A DNA stretch of 64,000 nucleotides from Eubacteriales bacterium (lineage in GTDB: Bacteria > Bacillota > Clostridia > Lachnospirales > Lachnospiraceae): assembly GCA_030536855.1 (NCBI GenBank), contig JAUNPK010000006.1, positions 1 to 64,000 on the forward strand, written 5' to 3'. Position 1 is the stretch's first letter; the number at the start of each line of letters is the position of its first letter. A program made the translations under genes and the position numbers. Positions 35,090 through 50,409 of the stretch are shown piece by piece. Under the pieces are notes generated by a model, which was not told the DNA's origin, did no database searches, and saw only the letters and a list, made by a program, of their open reading frames with translations.

Positions 35090-35212
35090 CAAATGTTTCA
35101 GGGGAATATATAATTTATGAGATATGATCATATATCATTTGCCAGCTTGTGAAAAGATATCAATATATTAATCGTATTGCGAATGAGATTATGTTCGAGA
35201 ATGGAGTATGTT

Positions 35213-36283
35213 ATGAAGAAAACAGCATTGATTATGGCAGGTGGTAAAGGAGAGAGATTCTGGCCAAGAAGCCGTGTTAATCTTCCAAAGCAGTTCCTGT
35301 CTTTAACAGATGATGGAAAGACAATGATTCAGCTTACAGTAGAAAGAATAAGTCCATTGGTTGATATAAAGGATGTATATATTGCAACTAATGAGAATTA
35401 TAGAGAATTGGTAAAGCAACAGCTTCCTAATCTTCCGGAGAAAAATATCCTTTGTGAACCGATTGGAAGAAATACAGCACCATGTATCGGACTTGGTGCC
35501 GTTCATGTAGCTAAGAAGGATGAAGATGCTATTATGATAGTTCTTCCTTCAGATCATCTTATTAAGAGTAATGACATATTTAAAGAAACATTTGCTAATG
35601 CCTGCGATATAGCAGAACAAGGTCCTAATCTTGTTACAGTAGGCATTACACCAAACTATCCGGAGACAGGTTACGGTTATATTAAGTATACCAAGGACAA
35701 TAAGCTCGGTGAGAGTTACGCAGTAGAAAAGTTTGTAGAAAAGCCGGATCTTCAAACTGCTAAAGAATATCTTGAAGATGGAACTTATCTTTGGAATTCA
35801 GGAATGTTTGTATGGAAGACATCAACAATCCTTGACTGCTTTAAGGAGTTTATGTCCTCTACCTATGAAGGTCTTCTAAAGATAAAAGATTCAATTGGAA
35901 CTGAAGAATATCAGAAAGTACTTGAAACAGAATTTCCAAATCTTGAGTCCCAATCAGTTGACTACGGAATTATGGAGAAAGCATCTAATATCTACACACT
36001 TGCAGGCAATTTTGGATGGGATGATGTAGGCTCATGGCTTGCCGTGGGTAGAATCAAAGAGAATGACAGCCAGGGGAATGTTGTTAATGGTAATGTCGTA
36101 ACCGTTAACACAAAGGATTGTGTTATTGAAGGTTCAGATAAACTCATTGCAACAGTGGGTTTAAGAGATATAATTGTAGTGGATACTAAGGATGCAACAC
36201 TTATCTCAACTAAGGAGAATGCCGGAGAGATTAAAAAAGTGCTTGCAAGTCTTAGAGAATCAGGTAAGACTCAGTACTTATAA
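35213..36283 (+). CDS. manC: mannose-1-phosphate guanylyltransferase
   Basis: Makes GDP-mannose from mannose-1-phosphate and GTP. The nucleotidyltransferase signature IMAGGKGERFWPRSR begins at residue 6, FVEKP lies near residue 171, and LWNSGMFVWK near residue 190. At 356 residues it is the single-domain form without a fused isomerase. The frame opens at 35177, but ATG 35213 (TGGAG upstream) gives the standard MKKTALIMAGGKG start. It begins the GDP-D-rhamnose block: manC, gmd, rmd. Confidence 0.95.
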   Translation: MKKTALIMAGGKGERFWPRSRVNLPKQFLSLTDDGKTMIQLTVERISPLVDIKDVYIATNENYRELVKQQLPNLPEKNILCEPIGRNTAPCIGLGAVHVAKKDEDAIMIVLPSDHLIKSNDIFKETFANACDIAEQGPNLVTVGITPNYPETGYGYIKYTKDNKLGESYAVEKFVEKPDLQTAKEYLEDGTYLWNSGMFVWKTSTILDCFKEFMSSTYEGLLKIKDSIGTEEYQKVLETEFPNLESQSVDYGIMEKASNIYTLAGNFGWDDVGSWLAVGRIKENDSQGNVVNGNVVTVNTKDCVIEGSDKLIATVGLRDIIVVDTKDATLISTKENAGEIKKVLASLRESGKTQYL

Positions 36284-36359
36284 TTAAGAATAAAAACTTG
36301 ATTATAGGATGATGTTAACTAGGCTGAGTATTACAAGGGAAACAAAGAATTAAGAATAA

Positions 36360-37418
<1,059 letters not shown>

Positions 37419-37430
37419 TAATGATTTGAT

Positions 37431-37494
37431 AAAAGTTTGCGCTTATATTGTAATCTAGATTAAATTTAGTCCAGTGTTATAAGTGCAAACTTTT
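37431..37494 (+). promoter_or_regulatory. stem-loop between gmd and rmd
   Basis: AAAAGTTTGCGCTTATA (37431-37447) pairs with TATAAGTGCAAACTTTT (37478-37494), a 17-bp stem with one G-U pair and a 30-nt loop. The right arm ends in TTTT, so it could act as a weak or two-way terminator or as an mRNA processing/stability hairpin that sets different levels of gmd and rmd. Confidence 0.65.
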
Positions 37495-37532
37495 AGTTAT
37501 ACTTTGCTGTTAAACAGCAGATAGGGGATTGA

Positions 37533-38474
37533 ATGAAAGCATTAGTAGTTGGTGGGGGCGGATTTGTAGGACCTTATCTTGTAAGCCATTTAACAAAGGA
37601 GCTTGGATACGAGGTTAACGTTACCAAGACGCAAAAAGAGATTCTTAATATTGCAGATGTTGGAATCTATGATTTGGATATACTTGATATAGAGCAGATT
37701 AAAGAGTTACTTAACAACTTAAGACCTGATTATATATTTCATCTTGCAGCACAGTCATCAGTTGCGTATTCATGGAAGAATCCTGCACTTACTATAGATG
37801 TTAACATTAAGGGGTGCGTTAATCTTCTGGATGCCATAAAGGAACTTGATTATAAACCAAGAGTTCTTCTCATTGGCTCAGGGGAAGAGTATGGACATAT
37901 AAAACAGGATGAATGCCCTATAGTTGAGGATAATGTTCTTCGTCCGGGAAATATATATGCGGCAACAAAATCCTGCCAGAATATGCTGGGCAAGATATAT
38001 GCAGATGCATACGGCTTGGATATTATGATGGTTAGAGCGTTTAATCATATTGGACCGAATCAGACACCTACCTTTGTTGTGGCAGATTTTTGTAAACAGG
38101 TAGCAGAGATTGAAAAGGGTATAAAAGAGCCAATTATGCATGTTGGGAATCTGGCTGCCAAGAGAGATTTTACAGATGTGAGAGATGTTGTAAAGGCATA
38201 TGCATTGTTAGTAAAGGGCGGTAAGCATGGAGAAACTTACAACGTTGGAAGTGGACATGCTATAGCTATAGAGGAAATCCTTAATAAAATCATAGATCTT
38301 TCAGATAGGGATATTAAGGTTGAGGTGGATCCGAATAAATTAAGACCTGTGGATGTACCAATTATTGAACCTGATATTACCAAGATCAATGAAGCAGTTG
38401 GCTGGAAACCTGAGATAAAACTTGAAACTACTTTAAAAGAAACTCTGGAATATTGGAGGAATCAAGGTGATTAG
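37533..38474 (+). CDS. rmd: GDP-6-deoxy-D-mannose reductase
   Basis: An SDR enzyme expected to reduce GDP-4-keto-6-deoxy-D-mannose to GDP-D-rhamnose. Nucleotide motif GGGGFVGPYL near residue 7, YAATK active-site pair near residue 144, and the family's AFNHIGPNQTPTFVVADFCKQ near residue 168, which is typical of Rmd rather than of GDP-L-fucose synthase. The length of 313 residues is normal. It directly follows gmd, which fixes the pathway. AGGGGATT precedes the ATG. Confidence 0.92.
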   Translation: MKALVVGGGGFVGPYLVSHLTKELGYEVNVTKTQKEILNIADVGIYDLDILDIEQIKELLNNLRPDYIFHLAAQSSVAYSWKNPALTIDVNIKGCVNLLDAIKELDYKPRVLLIGSGEEYGHIKQDECPIVEDNVLRPGNIYAATKSCQNMLGKIYADAYGLDIMMVRAFNHIGPNQTPTFVVADFCKQVAEIEKGIKEPIMHVGNLAAKRDFTDVRDVVKAYALLVKGGKHGETYNVGSGHAIAIEEILNKIIDLSDRDIKVEVDPNKLRPVDVPIIEPDITKINEAVGWKPEIKLETTLKETLEYWRNQGD

Positions 38475-38480
38475 AAAAGG

Positions 38481-39755
38481 TTGGTAACTAATGGACAAGA
38501 TAAAAAAATATTACAGTCAAAGAAGTTCTATGAAATAGCATTTATATCTACCGGAATTGCCGCATTTGTATTGTGGGTTATTGGATTGTTACTAAACGGT
38601 GAAAATAGTACTCAGATGCAGATCTTTTTTGGTAATTGCAATGACACTTTTGCAGATACGACTAATGTGGTCGGATATTCAGCACAAAAGGACGTATATC
38701 ATAACATGAATTACCAGGGGTTAGAAGAAAAAGCATACCCGCCGCTTACTTATATGCTTATGTACTTCTTCTCCAAGTTCGTAGATATGGACTGGTACTA
38801 TTCCCGTGACTGGTTTGCTGATATGTACACTGATGAGCAGTTCCTTATAGTTTTTTTGATTGTAACATTTATCATAGGTCTATTCATATACGAGACAGTT
38901 AGAAGTTTTAAAGATGGCTCCAATGCCATGAAAGTGTTGATTGCACTTGTTGTGTGTGTAAGTAATCCTATGTTGTTTTCTTTTCAAAGAGGCAACACGA
39001 TAATGCTTGTACTGGCATTAGAGATGTTATATATATTCTGGTACGACAGTGATAACAAGATAAAGAGAGAGGTTGCACTTATAAGCCTTGCATTAATGGT
39101 TGCGTTTAAACTAACGCCGGCGGTGTTGGGAATTCTTCTTTTGTTTAATAAGCAATGGAAGGACGCTGTAAAAGCGGTTATATATGGTTTTCTGGTTGGT
39201 TTTCTTCCGTTTTTGTTCTTTAAGGGAGGATTTAGTAATTTCTTTCAAATGCTTTCAAATATGCAGGCAAATGTGGAATCTTACGGAAGTGGACATGGAA
39301 CTACCCTTACAGCCGCTCTTGTTTACTTTGGAGTAATAGAAGGAACAACTGTACAGGGAAATATATTGCAGTATATTACGTATATTCTATGTGTAATTAT
39401 ACTTGTTGGCGCATTATTTTTTAAGAAAAGATGGGAACGTGTAGTTGCAATCACAACGGTACTTGTTGTTGCTATGTCTCATTCAGAGTATTACAATATA
39501 TTATATCTTGTACCGGGATGGATAGTTTTTCTTAATGAAGAAGAGCATAGGGCAGGAGATGTAGTAATGCTTATATCTATGATGCTGATAATTAACGATT
39601 TCCAGACAACCATAGTTGACAAGTTACTTAACTATCATCTAGCATTAATTATATTAATTGTGTTCATTTTGATAAAAGCAATGAGGACTATAGTTCAAGC
39701 AATTAAAACAAAAAATACAGGAAATGCGGTTTTACAGAAGGGAGATAAGGTATGA
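38481..39755 (+). CDS. polytopic GT-C-like membrane glycosyltransferase (GT87/DUF2029-like)
   Basis: A 424-residue protein with about ten hydrophobic segments. Features of the GT87/DUF2029-type mannosyltransferases are visible: an outer loop with NDTFADT near residue 50, YPPLTYMLMYFF near residue 83, and FQRGNTIMLVLALE near residue 166. The only start in frame is TTG 38481, 6 bp after rmd. The ATG at 38491 is out of frame. AAGGTGA lies 10 bp upstream. It overlaps rfbF by 4 bp (ATGA). It probably uses a polyprenyl-linked sugar on the outer face. Confidence 0.75.
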   Translation: MVTNGQDKKILQSKKFYEIAFISTGIAAFVLWVIGLLLNGENSTQMQIFFGNCNDTFADTTNVVGYSAQKDVYHNMNYQGLEEKAYPPLTYMLMYFFSKFVDMDWYYSRDWFADMYTDEQFLIVFLIVTFIIGLFIYETVRSFKDGSNAMKVLIALVVCVSNPMLFSFQRGNTIMLVLALEMLYIFWYDSDNKIKREVALISLALMVAFKLTPAVLGILLLFNKQWKDAVKAVIYGFLVGFLPFLFFKGGFSNFFQMLSNMQANVESYGSGHGTTLTAALVYFGVIEGTTVQGNILQYITYILCVIILVGALFFKKRWERVVAITTVLVVAMSHSEYYNILYLVPGWIVFLNEEEHRAGDVVMLISMMLIINDFQTTIVDKLLNYHLALIILIVFILIKAMRTIVQAIKTKNTGNAVLQKGDKV

Positions 39756-40528
39756 AGGTAGTAATTCTCGCGGGAGGATTAGGAACAAGAATAAGCGAAG
39801 AGAGTCAGTATAAGCCAAAGCCTATGATAGAGATTGGCGGAAAGCCTATACTTTGGCATATTATGAAAGAGTATTCATATTATGGGTTCAACGATTTTAT
39901 TATATGTGCAGGATATAAGCAGTATGTAATAAAGGAATGGTTTGCTGATTATTTCCTTCATAACAGTGATGTTACATTTGATTTTACAAGTGGCAAAAAT
40001 GATATGATTATTCACGAACAGCACTGTGAGCCATGGAAAGTTACAGTGGTTGATACAGGACTTAATACTATGACCGGCGGACGTATTAAGAGAATTCAGA
40101 AGTACGTTGGCAATGAACCGTTTATGATGACTTATGGAGATGGTGTATGTGATGTAGACATTTCGAAGCTTGCAGAATTTCATAAGAGCCATGGAAAGAT
40201 TGCAACACTTACAGCGGTTATGCTTGAGCAGCAAAAAGGTATTCTGGATATTGGGGGAGATAATGCAGTTAAATCCTTCAGAGAGAAGAGTCATAATGAT
40301 GGTGCACCTATAAATGCAGGATATATGGTACTTAATCCGGAGATATTTGATTATATCGAAGGAGATGAAACGGTATTTGAAAGAGAACCTCTTGAGAAGC
40401 TGGTTGCCGATGGAGAGCTTATGTCATATATGCACAAAGGCTTTTGGCAGTGTATGGATACTAAGAGAGAGATGGACATGCTTGAGAAATACCTCAAGAC
40501 TAATACGGCACCATGGAAAAAGTGGTAG
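39752..40528 (+). CDS. rfbF: glucose-1-phosphate cytidylyltransferase
   Basis: Makes CDP-glucose from glucose-1-phosphate and CTP, the first step of CDP-3,6-dideoxyhexose synthesis. The nucleotidyltransferase signature is VILAGGLGTRISEESQYKPKPM at the N-terminus, followed by the RfbF-specific ADYFLHNSDVTFDF near residue 70 and MMTYGDGVCDVDI near residue 126. The length of 258 residues is normal. It begins within the stop of the preceding gene (ATGA). rfbG and rfbH follow. Confidence 0.96.
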   Translation: MKVVILAGGLGTRISEESQYKPKPMIEIGGKPILWHIMKEYSYYGFNDFIICAGYKQYVIKEWFADYFLHNSDVTFDFTSGKNDMIIHEQHCEPWKVTVVDTGLNTMTGGRIKRIQKYVGNEPFMMTYGDGVCDVDISKLAEFHKSHGKIATLTAVMLEQQKGILDIGGDNAVKSFREKSHNDGAPINAGYMVLNPEIFDYIEGDETVFEREPLEKLVADGELMSYMHKGFWQCMDTKREMDMLEKYLKTNTAPWKKW

Positions 40529-40559
40529 TAGATATTGAATGGAGATAGTGTAAGAGATT

Positions 40560-41615
40560 ATGTTAGATTTATCTTTTTATAAGGGTAAGAAAGTTCTGGT
40601 AACAGGACATACCGGATTTAAAGGGTCATGGATGTGCAGGATTCTTGTTAATGCAGGAGCACAGGTGACAGGATATTCACTGGAGCCCCCAACCAAGCCT
40701 AATCTGTTCTCAATGGCAGATATTGAAGGAAGAATGAATTCTGTTATAGGTGATATAAGAGATTTGCCACATCTTAAAAAGGTGTTTGAAGAGACCCGGC
40801 CGGAGATAGTATTTCACCTGGCAGCGCAGCCAATTGTAAGGGATTCCTATAAGGATCCTGTTTACACATATGAGACTAACGTGATGGGCACGGTAAATAT
40901 ATGTGAATGCGTGAGACTCAATCCTTGTGTTAAGTCTTTCCTTAATGTGACAACAGATAAGGTATACCACAATAATGAATGGGCATGGGGATACAGAGAA
41001 GATGAGCCGCTTGACGGATATGATCCATATTCTAACTCAAAGTCATGTTCAGAGCTTGTTACTCACAGCTATATAAATTCATTTTTTAATGATATGGATG
41101 TAGCTGTTTCTACATCAAGAGCCGGAAATGTAATTGGTGGCGGAGATTTTGCCAATGACAGAATTGTTCCCGATTGTGTGAGAGCAGCCATAAAAAAAGA
41201 GGATATAATCGTAAGAAATCCTCATTCAACAAGACCATACCAGCATGTATTGGAGCCTGTAGCAGCTTACCTTATGATAGGAATGAAACAATTCGAAGAT
41301 AAGACTTATGCCAACTTCTACAATGTGGGACCTGATGAATGTGATTGTATAACAACAGGCGATCTTGTAGATGTATTCTGTAAATATTGGGGAGAGGGTA
41401 TCAAGTGGATTAACAAGTATGACGGAGGTCCGCACGAAGCCAATTTCCTGAAGCTGGATTGTTCAAGACTTAAGACAACTTTTAACTGGAAACCAAGGTG
41501 GAACTTTGATACAGCTATTAAGAAGACTGTAGAATGGTCAAAGGTCTACGCAGCAGGTGGAGATGTTGTGGAATGTATGGACAAACAGATAGAAGAATTT
41601 TTTACTGTGGAATAA
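40560..41615 (+). CDS. rfbG: CDP-glucose 4,6-dehydratase
   Basis: Converts CDP-glucose to CDP-4-keto-6-deoxyglucose. SDR motif VTGHTGFKGSWMCRIL begins near residue 13, HLAAQPIVRDSY lies near residue 83, and the active-site Tyr-xxx-Lys is YDPYSNSKSCSEL near residue 157. The length of 351 residues is normal. The ribosome binding site is weak (AAGAG). It lies between rfbF and rfbH, as in 3,6-dideoxyhexose clusters of Gram-negative bacteria. Confidence 0.95.
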   Translation: MLDLSFYKGKKVLVTGHTGFKGSWMCRILVNAGAQVTGYSLEPPTKPNLFSMADIEGRMNSVIGDIRDLPHLKKVFEETRPEIVFHLAAQPIVRDSYKDPVYTYETNVMGTVNICECVRLNPCVKSFLNVTTDKVYHNNEWAWGYREDEPLDGYDPYSNSKSCSELVTHSYINSFFNDMDVAVSTSRAGNVIGGGDFANDRIVPDCVRAAIKKEDIIVRNPHSTRPYQHVLEPVAAYLMIGMKQFEDKTYANFYNVGPDECDCITTGDLVDVFCKYWGEGIKWINKYDGGPHEANFLKLDCSRLKTTFNWKPRWNFDTAIKKTVEWSKVYAAGGDVVECMDKQIEEFFTVE

Positions 41616-41684
41616 TAATCCAATAAATTATGTAATCTCAGAAATTAAATGAATTTATGAATTAGTAGAGAAAGGAAATGTTCT

Positions 41685-43022
41685 ATGTTTGAGAATAAGA
41701 ATGAGAATGAAGCAAGAGAAGAAATACTTGGAATGGTTGATGAGTATTGTAAGAAATATCATAATCAGAAGCAGTACAAGGAAGGAGACCGAATTCCTTA
41801 TGCCAGCCGTGTATATGACAGCAAAGAGATGATGAATCTTGTGGATTCCGCATTGGAATTCTGGCTTACTTCAGGTCGATATACAGATGAGTTTGAGAAG
41901 AAGCTTGGGGAGTATCTTGGTGTTAAGTACGTGTCAGTGGTTAACTCAGGTTCATCTGCCAACCTTAATGCTTTTATGGCACTTACTTCTCCGTTATTAG
42001 GAGATCAGAGAATTAAAAGGGGTGATGAAATTATCACTGTTGCAGCAGGATTCCCTACAACTGTTACACCGGCAATTCAGTATGGTGCAGTCCCTGTTTT
42101 CGTAGATGTTACAATTCCTCAATACAATATAGATGTTACAAAGCTTGAAGAGGCTTATTCCGATAAGACTAAGGCAGTTATGATTGCCCATACTTTAGGT
42201 AATCCTTTTGACTTATCAGAGGTAAGAGCATTCTGTGACAGACATGGTTTATGGCTGGTTGAAGATAACTGTGATGCTTTGGGCTCTAAGTATACAATCG
42301 GAGGAGTAGAGAAATTTACCGGTACAATCGGTGACATCGGAACAAGCAGCTTTTATCCACCACACCACATGACAATGGGTGAAGGTGGTGCTGTATATAC
42401 TAATAATCCATTACTTAATAAGTGTATAAGATCTTTCAGGGATTGGGGACGTGATTGTGTATGTCCATCAGGACGTGATAATCTGTGCGGACACAGATTT
42501 GATAAGCAGTATGGTGAACTTCCTTTAGGATATGATCATAAGTATGTATATTCTCACTTCGGATATAATCTCAAGGCTACAGATATGCAGACAGCGGTAG
42601 GTTGTGCCCAGCTTGAGAAGTTCCCATCATTTGTTGAGAGAAGAAGACATAATTTCGACAGATTAAAGGCTGCATTAGCGCCAATCGAAGATAAGGTTAT
42701 CCTTCCTGTTCCTGTTGAGAATTCAAAACCAAGCTGGTTTGGTTTCTTAATCACAGTAAAAGAAGGTTTAGACAGAAAGTCAATAGTTGAATATATAGAA
42801 AATCATGGTGTTCAGACAAGAAATCTTTTTGCCGGAAATTTAATTAAGCATCCATGTTTTGATGAGATGAGAGCAACCGGTGAGGGATATAGAGTGGTTG
42901 GAACCCTTGAAAATACAGACAGAATTATGAGAGATACATTCTGGGTAGGAGTGTATCCGGGAATGACAGATGAAATGATTGATTATATGGCAAAGACAAT
43001 CATTGAGGCTGTTAATCAGTAA
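41685..43022 (+). CDS. rfbH: CDP-4-keto-6-deoxyglucose-3-dehydratase (E1)
   Basis: A PMP-dependent, iron-sulfur enzyme of the DegT fold that removes the C3 hydroxyl. The usual PLP-lysine is replaced by His in SSFYPPHHMTMGEGG near residue 221, the hallmark of E1 enzymes. The [2Fe-2S] ligand pattern RDCVCPSGRDNLCG is present near residue 258. At 445 residues the length is normal. Its reductase partner (RfbI/DdhD, E3) is not found in the window and would have to be encoded elsewhere. The CDP-3,6-dideoxy-4-ketohexose product feeds the unusual genes that follow. Confidence 0.95.
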   Translation: MFENKNENEAREEILGMVDEYCKKYHNQKQYKEGDRIPYASRVYDSKEMMNLVDSALEFWLTSGRYTDEFEKKLGEYLGVKYVSVVNSGSSANLNAFMALTSPLLGDQRIKRGDEIITVAAGFPTTVTPAIQYGAVPVFVDVTIPQYNIDVTKLEEAYSDKTKAVMIAHTLGNPFDLSEVRAFCDRHGLWLVEDNCDALGSKYTIGGVEKFTGTIGDIGTSSFYPPHHMTMGEGGAVYTNNPLLNKCIRSFRDWGRDCVCPSGRDNLCGHRFDKQYGELPLGYDHKYVYSHFGYNLKATDMQTAVGCAQLEKFPSFVERRRHNFDRLKAALAPIEDKVILPVPVENSKPSWFGFLITVKEGLDRKSIVEYIENHGVQTRNLFAGNLIKHPCFDEMRATGEGYRVVGTLENTDRIMRDTFWVGVYPGMTDEMIDYMAKTIIEAVNQ

Positions 43023-43077
43023 TTAAGATTTGATTATAGTTGGAAGAATTGTAAATAGTTAAAGTGGAAGGATTATA

Positions 43078-44688
43078 ATGGGTGATATTAAGCTTTTGGA
43101 CTGTACGCTCAGAGATGGCGGATACGTTAATGACTGGGAGTTTGGTCGGGATAATTTAATAAGCGTTTTTGAAAGACTTGTTAGCGCAGGTGTGGATGTT
43201 ATCGAAGTTGGTTTCATAGATGATAGAAGGCCATTTGATATTAATAGAAGTATTCTTCCTGATACAAAGAGCTTCGAGAAAATATATGGAGGATTGGATC
43301 ATAAAGACACTATGGTTGTTGGAATGATTGATTATGGCACATGTAAACTGGAAAATATTCAGCCATGTGAAGATTCTATACTTGATGGCATCAGAGTTAT
43401 TTTTAAAAAACATAAGAGAAAAGAAGCAATCGCATATTGCTCAGAACTTAAGAAACTGGGATATAAAGTATTTGTACAATTGGTTTCTATTACAAGTTAT
43501 AGTGACGAGGAACTGAGGGATTTAATTGGTCTTGCCAATGAATTGGAACCTTATGCGGTATCAATGGTAGACACCTATGGATTATTACAGAAAGAGAACC
43601 TGTTACATTATTTTACCGTTTTGAACGAAGAGTTGAAAGAATCAATTGCGTTAGGTTATCATTCACATAATAACTTTCAAAGAGCATTTGCGAATTGCGA
43701 AGAGATGCTTTCTAATCCGGTTGAAAGAGACCTTTTAGTAGACGCTACAATTTATGGAATGGGAAAGAGTGCAGGAAATTGTCCAATTGAGCTTCTTGCG
43801 ATGCATCTAAATGATCGGTTTAATAAGAATTACCATATAAGCCAGATTTTAGAGGCATTGGATGCTAATATTATGAACATATACAGAGTTAAACCTTGGG
43901 GATACACTATGTTCTTTTATATAGCAGCTCTCAATAATTGCCATCCTAGTTATGTATCTTATCTTATGGATAAAAGAACGCTTTCTGTTAAGCAGATTAA
44001 TGAAATTCTTGCAAAACTTAAAGATTACGGTGATAAACAGCTTTTATATGATCAGGAACTTATAGAACATTTATATCGGGATTATCAGAAAAAGATAAGT
44101 ATAAATGATGAGAGTGATGTTGAAAAGTTGAAATCCGAATTTGCAGGAAGAAATGTATTATTGCTTGGTCCAGGTAAAACAATTGAAAGAGACAAGAAGG
44201 ATATTATTAAATTTATTCAGGATAAGAATCCGATAGTAGTTTCGGTTAACTTTATTTCAGACGATATTCCTACAGATTATATCTTTTTAAGTAATGCAAA
44301 AAGATATGTTATGCTTGCAACGGCGCTGACCAAAAAAAGCAGTACTCTTAAAATTATATCTACAAGCAATGTTACTGCAACAGATGGAGAAAGTTTTGAT
44401 TATACATTAGATATATCATCGCTTTTGGATGAAAATGCAGAGATTGTTGACAATTCATTTGTAATGCTGCTTAAAGTTATGATAAAAATTGGCGTTAAAG
44501 AAGTTGCATTAGGTGGATTTGACGGATATTCGGGAAAAAAGAACAAAGATTATATTGATGCAAGAATGGAATATACCTTCACGAAAGAGCAAGCCACCGG
44601 TCTCAATCAGTATGTTTCAGAAGTTATAGAGAGTCTTGGAAATAGTATCATAATGAAATTTATAACAGAGTCATTGTATGTAAAATAG
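43078..44688 (+). CDS. two-domain DRE-TIM aldolase fusion protein
   Basis: Residues 1 to about 330 form an HMGL-like DRE-TIM barrel similar to 4-hydroxy-2-oxovalerate aldolase: LDCTLRDGGYVND (metal Asp and Arg-Asp, residues 7-19), VDTYGLL near 164, and the metal-binding GYHSHNN (His195, His197). Residues from about 350 on form a second, Rossmann-like domain (NVLLLGPGKTIERDKKDI; later VKEVALGGFDGYSGKKNKDY) that I do not recognise with certainty. DRE-TIM aldolases make or break C-C bonds next to pyruvate-type keto acids. Set between rfbH and a HAD phosphatase/ThDP enzyme, it may supply an unusual 2-keto acid for a branched-chain sugar. That role is inference. Confidence 0.82.
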   Translation: MGDIKLLDCTLRDGGYVNDWEFGRDNLISVFERLVSAGVDVIEVGFIDDRRPFDINRSILPDTKSFEKIYGGLDHKDTMVVGMIDYGTCKLENIQPCEDSILDGIRVIFKKHKRKEAIAYCSELKKLGYKVFVQLVSITSYSDEELRDLIGLANELEPYAVSMVDTYGLLQKENLLHYFTVLNEELKESIALGYHSHNNFQRAFANCEEMLSNPVERDLLVDATIYGMGKSAGNCPIELLAMHLNDRFNKNYHISQILEALDANIMNIYRVKPWGYTMFFYIAALNNCHPSYVSYLMDKRTLSVKQINEILAKLKDYGDKQLLYDQELIEHLYRDYQKKISINDESDVEKLKSEFAGRNVLLLGPGKTIERDKKDIIKFIQDKNPIVVSVNFISDDIPTDYIFLSNAKRYVMLATALTKKSSTLKIISTSNVTATDGESFDYTLDISSLLDENAEIVDNSFVMLLKVMIKIGVKEVALGGFDGYSGKKNKDYIDARMEYTFTKEQATGLNQYVSEVIESLGNSIIMKFITESLYVK

Positions 44689-44696
44689 GAGATGTT

Positions 44697-45353
44697 ATGA
44701 AAAAATATGAAATAGCTGTATTTGATGTGGATGGCACTTTGCTTGATACAACAGAAGGAGTTCTTGCTTCTGTAAAGTATACAATAAATAAAATGGGATT
44801 TAAACCATTAAGTGAAGATGTGTTAAAGACATTTATAGGACCTCCGATTCAAGATTCATTTGCTAAAGCATATAATCTTGAAGGCTCAATTCTACAGGAG
44901 ATAGCAACGTGTTTCAGAAACAGGTATAAGGATTATGAATTATTAAAGGCCGTTCCGTATGAAGGAATATATGATGTTTTTGATGAGCTTAGTGACAGAG
45001 GTGTAAAGCTGGCGGTTGCAACATATAAGAGACAAGATTATGCCGAAGCTATATTAAAACATTTTGGGTTCGATAGATATACAAATATTCTTTATGGTGC
45101 AGATCATGAGAATAAATTAAAAAAAGTTGATATTATTGAAAAGTGCATGATTGATTTAGGAGTTACAGATTATTCCAACGCAGTGATGGTTGGTGATAGT
45201 AGTCACGATGCAATAGGAGCTGAGAAAATTGGTATGGATTTTATTGGTGTGACATATGGATTTGATTTTAGGACGCCTGAGGATGTAGCAAAATTTAATT
45301 CAATTGGAGTTGCGACAAAACCGATTGAATTGTTAGATATAATATTAAGATAA
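44697..45353 (+). CDS. HAD-family phosphatase (Gph-like)
   Basis: A 218-residue haloacid dehalogenase-type hydrolase. Motif I is FDVDGTLLDTTEG (nucleophile and acid/base Asp, residues 9-21), motif II/III is VATYKRQDY near 103, and motif IV is MVGDSSHDAIGAE near 165. It looks like a phosphoglycolate-phosphatase relative with a helical cap. It starts 8 bp after the aldolase gene with AGGAG upstream, so the two are coupled. In this setting it could dephosphorylate the product of the aldolase; the substrate is not known. Confidence 0.85.
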   Translation: MKKYEIAVFDVDGTLLDTTEGVLASVKYTINKMGFKPLSEDVLKTFIGPPIQDSFAKAYNLEGSILQEIATCFRNRYKDYELLKAVPYEGIYDVFDELSDRGVKLAVATYKRQDYAEAILKHFGFDRYTNILYGADHENKLKKVDIIEKCMIDLGVTDYSNAVMVGDSSHDAIGAEKIGMDFIGVTYGFDFRTPEDVAKFNSIGVATKPIELLDIILR

Positions 45354-45383
45354 GTATAGTACATTAGAAGGATGGAAACGGCT

Positions 45384-47204
45384 ATGAGAATGAAAGTTGC
45401 TAAGTATATATCAGAGTTCTTTGTTAAACAGGGAGTAACTGATATGTTTATGATTACCGGTGGTGCAGCAATGCACCTTAATGATGCATTTGGACATCAG
45501 GAAGGATTAAAGTTAACATATAATCACCATGAGCAGGCCTGCACAATGGCAGCAGAGGGATATACACGCCAGACAGGTAAGATTGCACCTGTATGTGTTA
45601 CAGGAGGACCTGGCGGAACTAATGCCATAACCGGAGTCTTTGGAGCATATGTGGATTCGATTCCAATGTTTGTCGTTACAGGACAGGCAAAAAGGGAAAC
45701 TACAGTATGGTCCACCAATTTACCTCTTCGCCAGTTAGGTGACCAAGAAGTTAACATTACAGATGCAGTAAAGACAATGACAAAATATTCTAAAATGGTA
45801 ACAAATCCTATGAGTATCAGAAAGGAAGTTGAGAAGGCATGGTTCCTTATGCTCAATGGAAGACCGGGACCTGTATGGCTTGATATTCCCGGAGATGTTG
45901 CGTCTTCGTTTGTTGAAACGGATGATCTTGAACCGTTTGATGAACAAGGATATATTGATGAACATTGGGCATTATTCCACCAGGATAATCCTGTGTATGA
46001 TGAGAATCTTACAAAAGAAGTACTTGATAAAATAAAAGCAGCAAAGCGTCCTGTTATTCTTGCAGGTACAGCAATTAGACATTCCGGACAGCAGGAAGAA
46101 TTCTTACAGTGTATAGATAAACTGGGAATTCCGGTTGTTACAGCGTGGGATGCACATGACATTTTATGGGATGAACATCCTTTATATTGTGGAAGACCTG
46201 GGTCAGTAGGAACACGAGCAGGTAATTTTATTATACAGAATGCAGATTTATTAGTAGTATTTGGATGTAGAATGAATATCCGAATGATAGGATTCAATTT
46301 CGGTGATTTCGGTAAAAATGCATATAAGATTGTGGTTGATATTGATGATGCAGAACTTCATAAACCAACAGTTAAAGTAGATTTACCTGTACATGCCGAC
46401 TTAAGAGATTTCTTTAAATCCGTAAATGCTGCAGAATATGAGAAAAATGCTGAACATGCATCATGGGTAGAATGGTGCAGACAGTTAGATAAAAAATATC
46501 CTGCGACTCTTCCTGAGTATTATGAGGATGAAAATGGATTGAACCCTTATGCATTTACAACTGAACTGTTTAAAGAATTGAATTCCGAAGACAGTGTTGT
46601 GTGCAGTAATGGTGCGGCTTGTGTTATTACATTTCAGGCAGCTAATATTAAAAAAGGTCAGAGACTTTATACAAATTCCGGCTGTGCAGCCATGGGATAT
46701 GGTCTTCCGGCGGCAGTTGGAGCCTGTGTATCCCAACCGGATAAAAGAATAATATGCGTTGAGGGTGATGGAAGTTTTATGATGAATATTCAGGAACTTC
46801 AGACCATTGTATATAATAATCTTAATATGAAGATTTTTCTTATAAATAATAATGGTTATCATTCAATAAGACAGACCCAGACCAATTTATTTAAGGGACA
46901 GCCATATGTAGGTATAGGCGGTGGATACGGATTAAGTATGCCGGACTTTTCAAAGGTGTTGCCAGCGTTTGGAATTCCATATTACAAAATAGACAGTCTT
47001 GATAACATTAATAAAAATATTGATGAAGTATTAAATCATGATGGTCCTGTATTCTGTGAAGTAGTGGTTGATTGGCATCAGAATTTTGCACCTAAGTCAA
47101 GTTCGAAGGTTCTTCCGGATGGAAAGATTGTATCTGCAGCAGTAGATGATATGGCTCCATTTCTTGATAGAGATGAATATGAAGCTAACCATATTAATCA
47201 ATAA
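45384..47204 (+). CDS. thiamine-diphosphate-dependent enzyme (acetolactate synthase/YerE-like)
   Basis: About 606 residues with the three-domain layout of acetolactate-synthase-type ThDP enzymes. The activating Glu is in NHHEQACTMAAEGY near residue 50 and the ThDP motif is GDGSFMMNIQELQT...INNNGYHS near residue 460. In 3,6-dideoxysugar pathways a homologous enzyme (YerE) transfers an acetyl unit from pyruvate to C4 of CDP-3,6-dideoxy-4-ketoglucose to make yersiniose. Here it follows rfbFGH plus an aldolase and a HAD phosphatase. ATG 45372 touches the AGAAGG, so ATG 45384 (12 bp spacing) is slightly preferred; the start is uncertain. Confidence 0.85.
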   Translation: MRMKVAKYISEFFVKQGVTDMFMITGGAAMHLNDAFGHQEGLKLTYNHHEQACTMAAEGYTRQTGKIAPVCVTGGPGGTNAITGVFGAYVDSIPMFVVTGQAKRETTVWSTNLPLRQLGDQEVNITDAVKTMTKYSKMVTNPMSIRKEVEKAWFLMLNGRPGPVWLDIPGDVASSFVETDDLEPFDEQGYIDEHWALFHQDNPVYDENLTKEVLDKIKAAKRPVILAGTAIRHSGQQEEFLQCIDKLGIPVVTAWDAHDILWDEHPLYCGRPGSVGTRAGNFIIQNADLLVVFGCRMNIRMIGFNFGDFGKNAYKIVVDIDDAELHKPTVKVDLPVHADLRDFFKSVNAAEYEKNAEHASWVEWCRQLDKKYPATLPEYYEDENGLNPYAFTTELFKELNSEDSVVCSNGAACVITFQAANIKKGQRLYTNSGCAAMGYGLPAAVGACVSQPDKRIICVEGDGSFMMNIQELQTIVYNNLNMKIFLINNNGYHSIRQTQTNLFKGQPYVGIGGGYGLSMPDFSKVLPAFGIPYYKIDSLDNINKNIDEVLNHDGPVFCEVVVDWHQNFAPKSSSKVLPDGKIVSAAVDDMAPFLDRDEYEANHINQ

Positions 47205-47252
47205 ATTGTGCAAAATATATAATTATATATTATTACAAGAATGGAAAATGAT

Positions 47253-48170
47253 ATGAAAAGAGCAGTTATTACAGGACCTACAGGAGCGATAGGTCTGGCA
47301 CTTATTGAATTCCTGGAGAATGCAGGGGTAGATGTAGTTGCAGTGGTAAGACCCGGTTCTAAAAGAGCGGACAGAATTAAAGAAACCAGCCATGTCCGAA
47401 TTGTTCAATGCGATCTTAATAATCTTAAAGAGTTAAGGACACTTGTGCCGGAGGGAGCAGATACATTTTATCATTTCGGATGGGATGGTACATTTGGCAA
47501 CAGCCGTAACAATATGTATGGTCAGAATGATAATATCAGATATGCCCTTGATGCAGTTAATGCAGCAAAGGAGTTGGGATGCGATACATTTATCGGTGCG
47601 GGCTCTCAGGCGGAATATGGAAGAGTTGAAGGAAAGCTTAATGACAGGACACCTGTATTTCCTGAGAATGGATATGGAATGGCAAAGCTTTGCGCCGGAC
47701 AGATGACAAGAGTTATGTGTCAGGATTATGGTATCAGACATATCTGGACAAGAATTCTTAGTATATATGGTCCCTTCGACGGAGATAAAACCATGATTAT
47801 GAGTACTATAGATAGTCTTCTTAAACAGGAAAGACCATCCTGTACCAAAGGAGAACAGATGTGGGATTATCTATACTCTAAGGATGCAGGAAGAGCTTTT
47901 GCAGCTTTGGGAGAGTCGGGAATTGACGGGAAAGTATATTGCATAGGAAGCGGAACAGCCAGACCTCTTAAGGAATATATAGAGATTATGAGAGATACAA
48001 TCAATCCTGAACTTTCCATTGGTTTTGGGGACATACCATACGGACCAAAGCAGGTTATGTATCTTTGCGCCGATATAGAGGAACTTACAAAGGATACAGG
48101 TTTTGTGCCTTGCTATACATTTGAGGAAGGTATAAATGAAACCATTGACTGGTGTAAAAATAAAGTATAG
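47253..48170 (+). CDS. NAD(P)-dependent epimerase/reductase (SDR), YerF-like role possible
   Basis: An extended SDR of about 305 residues. Nucleotide motif VITGPTGAIGLALIEFL at the N-terminus, GAGSQAEYGRVEG near residue 116 and YGMAKLCAGQ near 142 (Tyr-xxx-Lys). In the yersiniose pathway a reductase (YerF) acts after the ThDP enzyme, and this gene has exactly that position. Alternatives are a 4-keto reductase giving paratose or abequose. ATG 47241 and ATG 47253 are both possible; neither has a strong ribosome binding site. Confidence 0.85.
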   Translation: MKRAVITGPTGAIGLALIEFLENAGVDVVAVVRPGSKRADRIKETSHVRIVQCDLNNLKELRTLVPEGADTFYHFGWDGTFGNSRNNMYGQNDNIRYALDAVNAAKELGCDTFIGAGSQAEYGRVEGKLNDRTPVFPENGYGMAKLCAGQMTRVMCQDYGIRHIWTRILSIYGPFDGDKTMIMSTIDSLLKQERPSCTKGEQMWDYLYSKDAGRAFAALGESGIDGKVYCIGSGTARPLKEYIEIMRDTINPELSIGFGDIPYGPKQVMYLCADIEELTKDTGFVPCYTFEEGINETIDWCKNKV

Positions 48171-48254
48171 AATAACGTGGTCATAGAGGATTTAGGTTCT
48201 CAAGTAACAGGCAGGATCGGTAGAATTGCGAAGAGATATAAAAGAGGTATAAAT

Positions 48255-49205
48255 ATGAAGAAAATAAGCATTATGGTACCTTGCTATAATGAAGAAGATA
48301 ATGTAATTCCTTTGTCAGAAGCATTGATTGATATGTTCGCAAAGGATCTTCCACAGTATGATTATGATATTCTTTTTATAGATAATGATTCTTCGGACAC
48401 AACAAGAGTGAAACTGAGAATGTTGTGTGAGAAGAACCCTAAGATTAAAGCAATCTTTAATGCAAAGAATTTTGGACAGTTTAATTCGCCTTATTACGGA
48501 ATTCTTCAGACAGATGGGGATTGTACAATTCCGGTGTGCGCTGATTTTCAGGACCCTATAGATGTAATTCCGAGACTGGTTAAAGAGTGGGAGAACGGGG
48601 CAAAGATAGTTTGTGCTGTTAAGACTAAAAGCAAGGAAAGCAAGATAATGTATTTCCTGCGTTCGATATATTATAAGATTATTAAGAAGATGTCCTCAGT
48701 TGAACAGATAGAGCATTTTACGGGCTTCGGATTATATGATAAGTCTTTTGTTAAGGTTCTTAAGGATCTTAAGGACCCAATTCCGTTTATCAGAGGAATT
48801 GTAGGAGAATTGGGATTTAAGAGGGTAGAGATAGAATATACCCAGGCTCAAAGAAGAGCCGGTAAGACTCATAACAATTTCTTTACACTTTATGATGCGG
48901 CAATGTTAAGTTTTACATCATACACTAAGATTGGACTTAGACTTGCAACATTTATAGGAGCTTTTGTAGGGTTTGCAAGTATCGTAGTAGCAATAGTTTA
49001 TCTTGTGCTTAAGCTTATTTACTGGGACAGATTTGCAGCGGGTATGACGCCTCTTATTATCCTTGTGAGTTTTCTTGGGTCATTACAGTTATTCTTTATT
49101 GGTCTTCAGGGTGAGTATATACTCAGCATGAATAGGAGACTTATGAACAGACCTCTTGTGGTAGAAGAGGAGAGAATTAACTTCGATATAGAAGAGAAAG
49201 AATAA
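48255..49205 (+). CDS. family 2 glycosyltransferase, GtrB/polyprenyl-phosphate type
   Basis: A 316-residue GT2 enzyme of the DPM1/GtrB branch, which charges undecaprenyl phosphate with a sugar for use on the outer membrane face. N-terminus ISIMVPCYNEEDNVIPLSEAL, Asp site IDNDSSDTTR, DxD-like CADFQDPIDVIP near residue 95, QRRAGKTHNNFFTLYDAA near residue 197, then two C-terminal membrane segments. The frame is open from 48177, but ATG 48255 has AAGAGG upstream. It would provide the polyprenyl-linked donor for the GT-C-like proteins of this locus. Confidence 0.9.
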   Translation: MKKISIMVPCYNEEDNVIPLSEALIDMFAKDLPQYDYDILFIDNDSSDTTRVKLRMLCEKNPKIKAIFNAKNFGQFNSPYYGILQTDGDCTIPVCADFQDPIDVIPRLVKEWENGAKIVCAVKTKSKESKIMYFLRSIYYKIIKKMSSVEQIEHFTGFGLYDKSFVKVLKDLKDPIPFIRGIVGELGFKRVEIEYTQAQRRAGKTHNNFFTLYDAAMLSFTSYTKIGLRLATFIGAFVGFASIVVAIVYLVLKLIYWDRFAAGMTPLIILVSFLGSLQLFFIGLQGEYILSMNRRLMNRPLVVEEERINFDIEEKE

Positions 49206-49230
49206 ATATGTAGTGTAATTGGAGATGTTT

Positions 49231-50409
49231 GTGAGAGAGAAGATTAAAACTGTATGGGAGAAAATATTTACCAAAGAGAATATTGAAATAATGAAAAAAG
49301 TTCTTCTGATTCTTGTTATATCCAGAATGTTTTATATATTCATCGGATGTGTGACAGATTCAGCTTTTGGAAACAACATAAAGTTTGCTAAAATGTTCTT
49401 AGGCGGTGATGCCGACTGGTATGTTAATATAGCTAAGAACGGATATGTTCTTTCTGATTATGTGTATGCAGGAGACGGACAGGCAAACTGGGCATTTTTT
49501 CCATTATTTCCAATATCTATAAGAATCTTTAAATACATTTTCTTTTTCTTAAGTTTTGAGCAGGCGGGAATAATTCTCAGCACCATTTATGTGTATATTA
49601 CAGGAATATTTCTGGTTAAGACATTAAGGCTTATAAAGCCGGGACACAGAGGATATATGGCCGTGGTTCTTTTGTATATGGGACCATATACATTTTATCT
49701 GACCTGCGTATATTCAGAGACATTATTTATGATGCTTCTTTCTATCTTTTTCTATTACCTTAGAAAAAGTAATTACAAGATAGCTGCTGTAGTTGCCATG
49801 TTTGCAAGCTGCACAAGAATCGTGGGAGTTATACTTGTATTTTCTCTTGCATTACAGATGTATCTTGATAATTTTCCGGGAAGGATCAGCTTCAGGAAGA
49901 TATGGGATTACATAAAATGGATGTTTAAGAATCCGGTTAATCTGGCGTTAATCTTTATGTGTCCACTGGGAATATTCGTGAATATGCTTCATCTGTATAT
50001 TCGTGTGGGAGATGCCTGGGCATTTTCAAGCGTGCAGAGAGCATGGAGAAATGATGGAGCCGGATATATAGGCAATATGACATGGGATTTCTTTAATAAT
50101 GTTTATCCGGAGAGATATTGGATTCCTATCGTTATTATTATGGTGTTGTTCATATATATCTATATGCTCAGAAAAAAGTATTACACGGAAGTGATATTTG
50201 CTCTAATTACTTTAATTATTCCGTTAACAAGCGGTGTAATGTCTATGTGTAGATTTATTGTAGGAAGCTATGTTATATTTCTTGGCGTATATGAATATCT
50301 TGCTGATAAGACGGAGTATAAGATACTTACGACAGTTGTAGGAATTGTGGCGGAAGCATTTTTGATATGGCTGTGGTTTACTGCCGGTGTAAATGCTTTC
50401 ACAGCATAA
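49231..50409 (+). CDS. PIG-V-like GT-C membrane glycosyltransferase
   Basis: A 392-residue membrane protein with about nine hydrophobic segments. The first outer loop holds FLGGDADWYVNIAKNGY (acidic DxD-like site) and QANWAFFPLFP near residue 87, both characteristic of PIG-V-like mannosyltransferases. GTG 49231 lies 6 bp after GGAG; ATG 49225 and TTG 49219 are also in frame but too close to it. It follows a GtrB-like gene, a common pairing in which one makes the polyprenyl-linked sugar and the other transfers it. The acceptor is unknown. Confidence 0.78.
   Translation: MREKIKTVWEKIFTKENIEIMKKVLLILVISRMFYIFIGCVTDSAFGNNIKFAKMFLGGDADWYVNIAKNGYVLSDYVYAGDGQANWAFFPLFPISIRIFKYIFFFLSFEQAGIILSTIYVYITGIFLVKTLRLIKPGHRGYMAVVLLYMGPYTFYLTCVYSETLFMMLLSIFFYYLRKSNYKIAAVVAMFASCTRIVGVILVFSLALQMYLDNFPGRISFRKIWDYIKWMFKNPVNLALIFMCPLGIFVNMLHLYIRVGDAWAFSSVQRAWRNDGAGYIGNMTWDFFNNVYPERYWIPIVIIMVLFIYIYMLRKKYYTEVIFALITLIIPLTSGVMSMCRFIVGSYVIFLGVYEYLADKTEYKILTTVVGIVAEAFLIWLWFTAGVNAFTA

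Follow-up and report, generated by a model that had tools for sequence, protein, structure and literature searches.

The rfb-aldolase-ThDP operon

The stretch of DNA analysed here (the window) comprises 64,000 nucleotides at the start of contig JAUNPK010000006.1 of a Lachnospiraceae genome (assembly GCA_030536855.1), and its subject is a run of seven genes at 39752-48170, all called as open reading frames (ORFs) on the forward strand. In order, these are rfbF, rfbG, rfbH, a DRE-TIM aldolase fused to an extra domain, a HAD phosphatase, a thiamine diphosphate (ThDP) enzyme and a short-chain dehydrogenase/reductase (SDR), separated by 31, 69, 55, 8, 18 and 36 bases. The original prediction, made from the letters alone, had described the same run on one strand with short gaps, and the ORF calls agree with it in coordinates and strand. 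We propose that the operon probably directs the synthesis of a cytidine diphosphate (CDP)-activated branched sugar whose branch would derive from a longer 2-keto acid. The genes, together with the glycosyltransferase gene that follows them, are listed below.

39752..40528, + strand: rfbF, glucose-1-phosphate cytidylyltransferase (TIGR02623, 375.6 bits against a cut-off of 300.25)
40560..41615, + strand: rfbG, CDP-glucose 4,6-dehydratase (TIGR02622, 443.6 bits against a cut-off of 278.45)
41685..43022, + strand: rfbH, CDP-6-deoxy-4-hexulose 3-dehydrase (NF011936, 716.1 bits against a cut-off of 423; CxCx7C and PPHHM motifs)
43078..44688, + strand: DRE-TIM (HMGL-like) pyruvate-type aldolase with a C-terminal domain of no assigned family (PF00682 at 4-260)
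44697..45353, + strand: HAD phosphatase (HAD_2), which would take the phosphate off the aldol product (PF13419; DVDGT at 10, GDSSHD at 166)
45372..47204, + strand: YerE-like ThDP lyase, proposed to form the branch (all three TPP domains; best structural match 8rph)
47241..48170, + strand: SDR reductase, proposed to act on the branch ketone (PF01370; GPTGAIG and YGMAK motifs)
48258..49205, + strand: GT2 glycosyltransferase, a candidate for transferring the sugar (PF00535)

RfbF, RfbG and RfbH each exceed the cut-off of an NCBIfam equivalog model, which assigns them to CDP-3,6-dideoxyhexose synthesis. The motifs of RfbH, PPHHM at 225 and CxCx7C at 258-268, are as expected of a [2Fe-2S] 3-dehydrase.

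The ThDP enzyme finds its best match in PDB in 8rph (378 bits), followed by an acetolactate synthase (234 bits); 5ahk, labelled acetolactate synthase in PDB and presumably PpYerE, scores 212 bits. Motifs of the family are present: HHEQ at 52, with the catalytic Glu, and GDG at 465 with NN downstream. The entry 8rph is JanthE, a YerE-like lyase (PMC12188165), and the window's enzyme is closer to this one reference than to acetolactate synthases. JanthE, the closest solved structure by sequence, differs in having CDG where the window has GDG. One further TPP_enzyme_N protein is encoded in the window's genome (C32).

In the aldolase, the DRE-TIM motif (DCTLRDG at 8) and the HxH motif (HSHNN at 195) are both present, and D8, H195 and H197 are invariant across an alignment of 38. 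Its C-terminal part has no Pfam match. SteA-like proteins, GT42 sialyltransferases and MptE-type pyrophosphokinases were considered as relatives of this part and set aside, the PDB matches being weak (E 0.05-0.58) and pointing to no firm family; three of the 38 members are weakly MptE-like there.

Recurrence of the operon and interchange of keto-acid supply genes

Relatives of the ThDP enzyme were sought in 196 genomes of the order, where 29 matched at 1e-75, and in 397 genomes of the family, where 130 matched at 1e-85, the window's own genome being included in both counts. These searches furnished a first set of 82 loci: 22 neighbourhoods from the first (28 other genomes) and 60 stretches from the second, the latter being the best-scoring of 142 places listed and then mostly those at 32-42%, with most of those at 43-52% left out. 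The ThDP gene was recovered in 81 of the 82 (L164 was lost, probably to the ORF filter). A second set came from a scan of named genomes and comprises the best 80 of at least 593 stretches, 78 of which were labelled, on either strand; L281 (isolate C-53) in this set and L146 in the first come from one genome.

The order rfbF-G-H-aldolase-HAD-ThDP-SDR is repeated in L146, L152 and L154; in L140 (same genus) and L142 it is found again, but with a single unlabelled ORF inserted behind rfbH. A search of other genomes for the aldolase-HAD-ThDP-SDR neighbourhood beside rfbH, which the original prediction had put forward as a check, thus finds it again, and its recurrence across many genomes means that it is not a chance assembly. 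At a threshold of at least 150 bits, rfbF, rfbG or rfbH is present in 54 of the 81 loci of the first set. Of the 397 family genomes, 134 have rfbH, 130 have the YerE-like gene and 118 have both (Fisher p 8e-68 with genomes treated as independent), so that 118 of the 130 genomes with the ThDP gene link it to the genes for CDP-3,6-dideoxy-4-ketoglucose.

As a control we examined 18 loci from 16 genomes with rfbH and with no ThDP match at threshold. Two of these loci do have a ThDP gene (L202, and L215, which is ended by its contig); in the remaining 16, DRE-TIM and HpcH aldolases and HADs of the window's type are all lacking, and a NeuB-like gene is present in one (L217). It is thus the ThDP gene, and not rfbH by itself, that the aldolase accompanies. 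Ten aldolase-ThDP loci of the first set have no rfb gene within their stretch: nine of their genomes were searched, seven of which have rfbH elsewhere and two of which (G809 and G716) do not, and the tenth locus (L048) lay outside that search. All nine DRE-TIM loci of the second set have rfb genes within the stretch. Conservation of the aldolase, HAD and ThDP genes without rfbFGH in unrelated settings, which had been named beforehand as evidence against a common pathway, was thus not encountered among the loci seen, rfbH being elsewhere in most of these genomes.

In a quick LG+G4 tree of the ThDP enzyme with 84 rows, which carried warnings for long JanthE and acetolactate-synthase branches and for the joining of L048 with L199, the window falls in a supported clade of 27. 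The aldolase accompanies 22 of these within 6 kb on the same strand; the other five comprise a short aldolase (L155), an aldolase just beyond 6 kb (L156) and three loci ended by contigs. A neighbouring clade of 17 rows holds 14 loci without a supply module, one with the aldolase and two that are cut, and aldolase and NeuB labels change between one another three times on this tree. When the second set was added (FastTree), the window's clade grew to 31 rows with support 100, and 28 of these have a pyruvate-aldolase-type gene (27 DRE-TIM and one HpcH/HpaI, in L283), two of the 28 (L146 and L281) being from one genome. The remaining three (L157, L159 and L165) are cut by contig ends, and the end of L159 encodes the C-terminal half of an aldolase fusion.

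The kind of supply gene varies from locus to locus. Within 6 kb on the same strand, the first set (n=81) has a fusion or full-length-like aldolase in 28 loci, a short DRE-TIM aldolase in 4, NeuB in 16 and DmpG in 1; the second (n=78, either strand, one locus counted twice) has NeuB in 20, DmpFG in 12, DRE-TIM in 9, HpcH/HpaI, counted anywhere in the stretch, in 13, and none in 25. Over both sets (159 loci) DRE-TIM aldolases number 41, NeuB 36, DmpFG 13 and HpcH 13. Two kinds occur together in a single locus of the 159, against 19.0 expected from label shuffles that leave shared ancestry in (the lowest of 5000 gave 9). Labels were confirmed by Pfam or NCBIfam in examples (NeuB in L101 and L102, a HAD-SIS fusion in L102, HpcH/HpaI in L245, L276 and L283), the remainder being assigned by similarity. 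In L106, rfbFGH, ThDP and SDR genes accompany an acetylating acetaldehyde dehydrogenase (TIGR03215) and a 4-hydroxy-2-oxovalerate aldolase (TIGR03217), both over their equivalog cut-offs.

NeuB-family synthases stand by YerE-like ThDP genes in L101, L102, L190, L238, L246 and others, and from these neighbours ulosonic acids derived from phosphoenolpyruvate may be ThDP donors too. HpcH/HpaI-type aldolases do so in L241, L245, L264, L269, L273, L276, L280, L282, L283, L284, L287, L296 and L300. NagD-like HADs were seen in L241, L259, L264 and L269, that of L259 being confirmed by Pfam.

Pocket positions were mapped onto these enzymes from the JanthE paper (PMC12188165). At the position of JanthE F564, the DRE-TIM group has F in 31 of 43, the module-free clade W in 9 of 16, enzymes with DmpFG L in 10 of 13, and the NeuB group V or T in 18 of 36. 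We discarded such differences as proof of the donor: they follow the ThDP tree, and so prove nothing.

The aldolase fusion was also followed in its own right, through ten full-length fusions labelled for their neighbours. A CMP-sugar synthetase directly adjoins seven of them (L042, L044, L046, L047, L049, L050 and L051; confirmed by Pfam in L042 and L044), a ThDP gene is near one (L048), and two (L043 and L045) have neither. A KdsC-type phosphatase follows the fusion in L046, L047, L049 and L051 (NCBIfam-confirmed in L046 and L049), and a HAD of the window's type is near it in L043, L044, L045 and L048. Such neighbours are consistent with an aldolase whose products are ulosonic-type keto acids, in many cases phosphorylated. 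The family is not specific to branched sugars, since it is found without a ThDP gene and adjoining CMP-sugar synthetases. In the window's genome the one match to CTP_transf_3 scores 19.9 bits, under the cut-off of 22.6, and a free ulosonic acid would therefore be without its usual activation route there. Compared with ulosonic-acid supply of the Kdo/Kdn kind (aldolase or NeuB, KdsC-type phosphatase, CMP-synthetase), the window has the same aldolase family and a phosphatase side by side, and a decarboxylating ThDP enzyme in place of the CMP-synthetase. L048 brings together the aldolase, a HAD, FkbM, a GNAT-looking gene and a ThDP gene, with no rfbF, rfbG or rfbH above 150 bits in its 19 kb.

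Two alternative explanations can be weighed against these distributions. In the first, pyruvate is the donor of the ThDP enzyme, as it is for YerE, and the product is yersiniose; the aldolase and HAD would then belong to the synthesis of a different sugar in the same glycan. The many YerE-like loci (32 of 81 and 25 of 78) in which no keto-acid module was recognised, the occurrence of the aldolase family without ThDP genes and the presence of a related SDR in module-free loci such as L091 are all in its favour. However, in the window's own ThDP clade a pyruvate-aldolase-type gene is present in 28 of the 31 loci, the remaining three being cut, the module-free enzymes lie mainly in the 17-row clade, and the genome has no CMP-ulosonate synthetase through which the keto acid could find another use; we therefore regard this explanation as unlikely. 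In the second, the CDP sugar is itself the acceptor of the aldolase, which adds pyruvate straight onto its 4-ketone, and the ThDP enzyme has a later step or a different substrate. A direct pyruvate aldol on a sugar ketone is suggested by the branch of shewanellose, and the window offers both a member of the pyruvate-aldolase superfamily and adjoining genes that would make a CDP-4-keto sugar. Such a route nevertheless leaves no role for the HAD, and explains neither the replacement of the aldolase by NeuB, DmpFG or HpcH near the same ThDP family nor its place beside CMP-sugar synthetases, and appears to us very improbable.

A proposed route to a C4-branched 3,6-dideoxyhexose

We consider it likely, from gene content and sequence relationships, that the aldolase and HAD produce a longer keto acid which the ThDP enzyme decarboxylates and grafts onto C4 of the sugar, the SDR then reducing the product. 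By family assignment and established chemistry, RfbF, RfbG and RfbH would supply CDP-3,6-dideoxy-4-ketoglucose. The aldolase would join pyruvate to an aldehyde that is probably a sugar phosphate; once the HAD had stripped the phosphate from the resulting keto acid, an ulosonic-type 3-deoxy-2-keto acid would be left in free form. Following decarboxylation by the YerE-like enzyme, the acyl-ThDP would add the remaining chain to C4 of the CDP sugar, and the SDR would reduce the new branch ketone. The predicted product is a CDP-activated 3,6-dideoxy-4-C-(2'-deoxy-polyhydroxyalkyl)-hexose of the caryophyllose kind, which the neighbouring glycosyltransferase may place in a surface glycan. A pyruvate aldol would leave the branch without a hydroxyl group at C2', a pattern that caryophyllose shows.

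Several known systems offer points of comparison. The yersiniose pathway has in common with the window CDP-3,6-dideoxy-4-ketoglucose and a ThDP lyase, and includes an SDR-type reductase. To our knowledge, no aldolase, phosphatase or long-keto-acid supply gene belongs to that pathway or sits by YerE, whereas the window's operon carries both an aldolase and a HAD. YerE moves the two-carbon unit of pyruvate, its preferred donor, to CDP-3,6-dideoxy-4-ketoglucose (PMC12247030). ErwE, from the erwiniose system of Pectobacterium atrosepticum, prefers hydroxylated longer 2-keto acids, 4-hydroxy-2-oxopentanoate included, and its proposed acceptor is CDP-4-keto-3,6-dideoxyglucose, for which a sugar analogue stood in when the reaction was demonstrated in vitro (PMC12247030). 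MMAR_2332, from the caryophyllose system of Mycobacterium marinum, has a donor preference like that of ErwE, tested with a benzaldehyde derivative as acceptor, and MygE (gastriose) accepts C3-C8 keto acids with benzaldehyde (PMC12247030). JanthE takes short to long 2-keto acids, including 4-hydroxy-2-oxovalerate with benzaldehyde (PMC12188165). Caryophyllose itself is 3,6-dideoxy-4-C-(1,3,4,5-tetrahydroxyhexyl)-xylo-hexose, with no hydroxyl on C2' (PMC5706390). It resembles the product proposed here as a C4-branched 3,6-dideoxyhexose with a hydroxylated chain, its own being of six carbons, and differs as part of a mycobacterial lipooligosaccharide.

ErwE and MMAR_2332 set a precedent for longer donors, so the chemistry at the core of the original prediction is of a kind already known. 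The original prediction had spoken of a possible new pathway, which is too strong, as YerE-like enzymes using longer hydroxylated keto acids are reported for the same CDP sugar (PMC12247030). In the titles and openings of the literature searched we found no description of aldolase-HAD or NeuB modules beside YerE-like enzymes, although Steitz 2022 and Krug 2024 may differ.

Several observations weigh against the proposed route. Firstly, loci with no known keto-acid maker are frequent (32 of 81 in the first set, of which 10 are cut, and 25 of 78 in the second, of which 8 are cut), and other donors, pyruvate among them, are therefore common. Secondly, the HAD accompanies 19 of the 29 aldolase-ThDP loci of the first set (one being KdsC-like), is absent from the stretch in 10, and is labelled in just one of the nine DRE-TIM loci of the second, so that the phosphate step may not be general. 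Either the loci without a HAD have a phosphatase elsewhere in the genome, or many of these aldolases take free aldehydes. L278 (Clostridium thailandense PL3), for instance, carries the aldolase, ThDP and SDR genes with no HAD labelled. Thirdly, the window's aldolase scores 65.4 bits against TIGR03217 (HOA-aldolase), far under the cut-off of 286. Fourthly, no PF00970 (FAD_binding_6) match was found in the whole 99%-complete genome, using a model that matches in 8 of 14 control genomes; this extends to the genome the earlier remark that no RfbI/DdhD-type reductase is in the window, and RfbH would therefore be served by another electron donor, or the step differs. Finally, the Fisher p-value and the label shuffles overstate independence because genomes share ancestry, the control of 16 loci is small, with several on short contigs, and the loci were picked by likeness to the window's ThDP enzyme, so that the shares given are not those of all YerE-like genes. 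The original suggestion of a larger 2-keto acid, made by aldol addition and dephosphorylated, is thus supported in part by genome comparison, less so in its phosphate half than in its aldolase half. In L166, a KdsC-like gene, 63% to that of L049, stands where the window has its HAD.

A third alternative concerns the nature of the keto acid, which would be 4-hydroxy-2-oxopentanoate, made from pyruvate and acetaldehyde without any phosphate, as in an erwiniose-type pathway. ErwE provides the precedent, and DmpF and DmpG are paired close to YerE-like genes, by curated models in L106 and on similarity in L222-L224, L226, L227, L229, L231, L232 and L236. Erwiniose has ten carbons (PMC8657720) and therefore a four-carbon branch. 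Its system, compared here by enzyme and sugar, has in common with the window a YerE-like ThDP lyase and the proposed acceptor; the window differs in its aldolase, with the extra domain, and in its HAD. The window's aldolase not only fails TIGR03217 but is also without the DmpG_comm domain (PF07836) of DmpG-type 4-hydroxy-2-oxovalerate aldolases, no acetaldehyde dehydrogenase is among the ten proteins of 38481-50409, and on the FastTree phylogeny the window's ThDP enzyme groups with aldolase-fusion rows, that of L106 with DmpG rows. With a HAD gene also sitting in the operon, we give this alternative little credence. The best 80 of at least 593 stretches in the second set, for which the L106 enzyme was the first query, include no Pectobacterium or Mycobacterium locus.

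A broader proposition, which we advance tentatively and rate at slightly less than an even chance, is that sialic- or Kdo-type ulosonic acids, made by DRE-TIM, HpcH or NeuB enzymes and often with a phosphatase, are decarboxylated on YerE-like enzymes instead of being activated with CTP, and are grafted onto C4 of the CDP sugar. This would amount to a large and so far unexplored class of monosaccharides, C10-C15 in size, within the Lachnospiraceae and also across many other phyla. Since 130 of the 397 family genomes carry a YerE-like gene, and 118 of those rfbH as well, the surfaces of these bacteria may commonly include branched sugars that nobody has yet sought. The supply gene beside each ThDP gene hints at the likely donor, making donor choice in these carbon-carbon bond-forming biocatalysts directly testable, and the loci offer candidate enzymes for placing large polyhydroxylated chains on ketones.

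Neighbouring genes and further loci

A GT2-type gene recurs near the ThDP and SDR genes in many loci, and 40 of the 81 ThDP loci of the first set have a related SDR on the ThDP strand no more than 6 kb away. Just upstream of the operon, at 35177-38474, are genes that resemble, as judged by eye, ManC, Gmd and an RMD-type reductase for a GDP-6-deoxy sugar. The window's genome also has a second, short DRE-TIM aldolase (G000:C19:4981-5880, L056; 32% identity), with no ThDP or CMP-synthetase gene labelled within 15 kb.

Near YerE-like genes in L289 (Bradyrhizobium canariense BTA-1), L240, L245, L273, L280 and L159 there is a dehydroquinate-synthase-like cyclase, confirmed by Pfam in L289 and L240; a link to carbocyclic sugars such as bradyrhizose would be a guess. 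In L208 and L212, whose stretches show no YerE-like gene, rfb genes stand beside an SDR and a transketolase split into N and C halves (assigned by similarity), possibly reflecting a transketolase-type branching of the same sugar. A plasmid search with the ThDP protein recognised no YerE-like locus in the 30 of 35 matches listed, which were at most 32.4% identical and annotated as acetolactate synthase or unannotated. In IMG/VR, a YerE-like gene (39%) is carried by two contigs filed as viral (L219 and L220).

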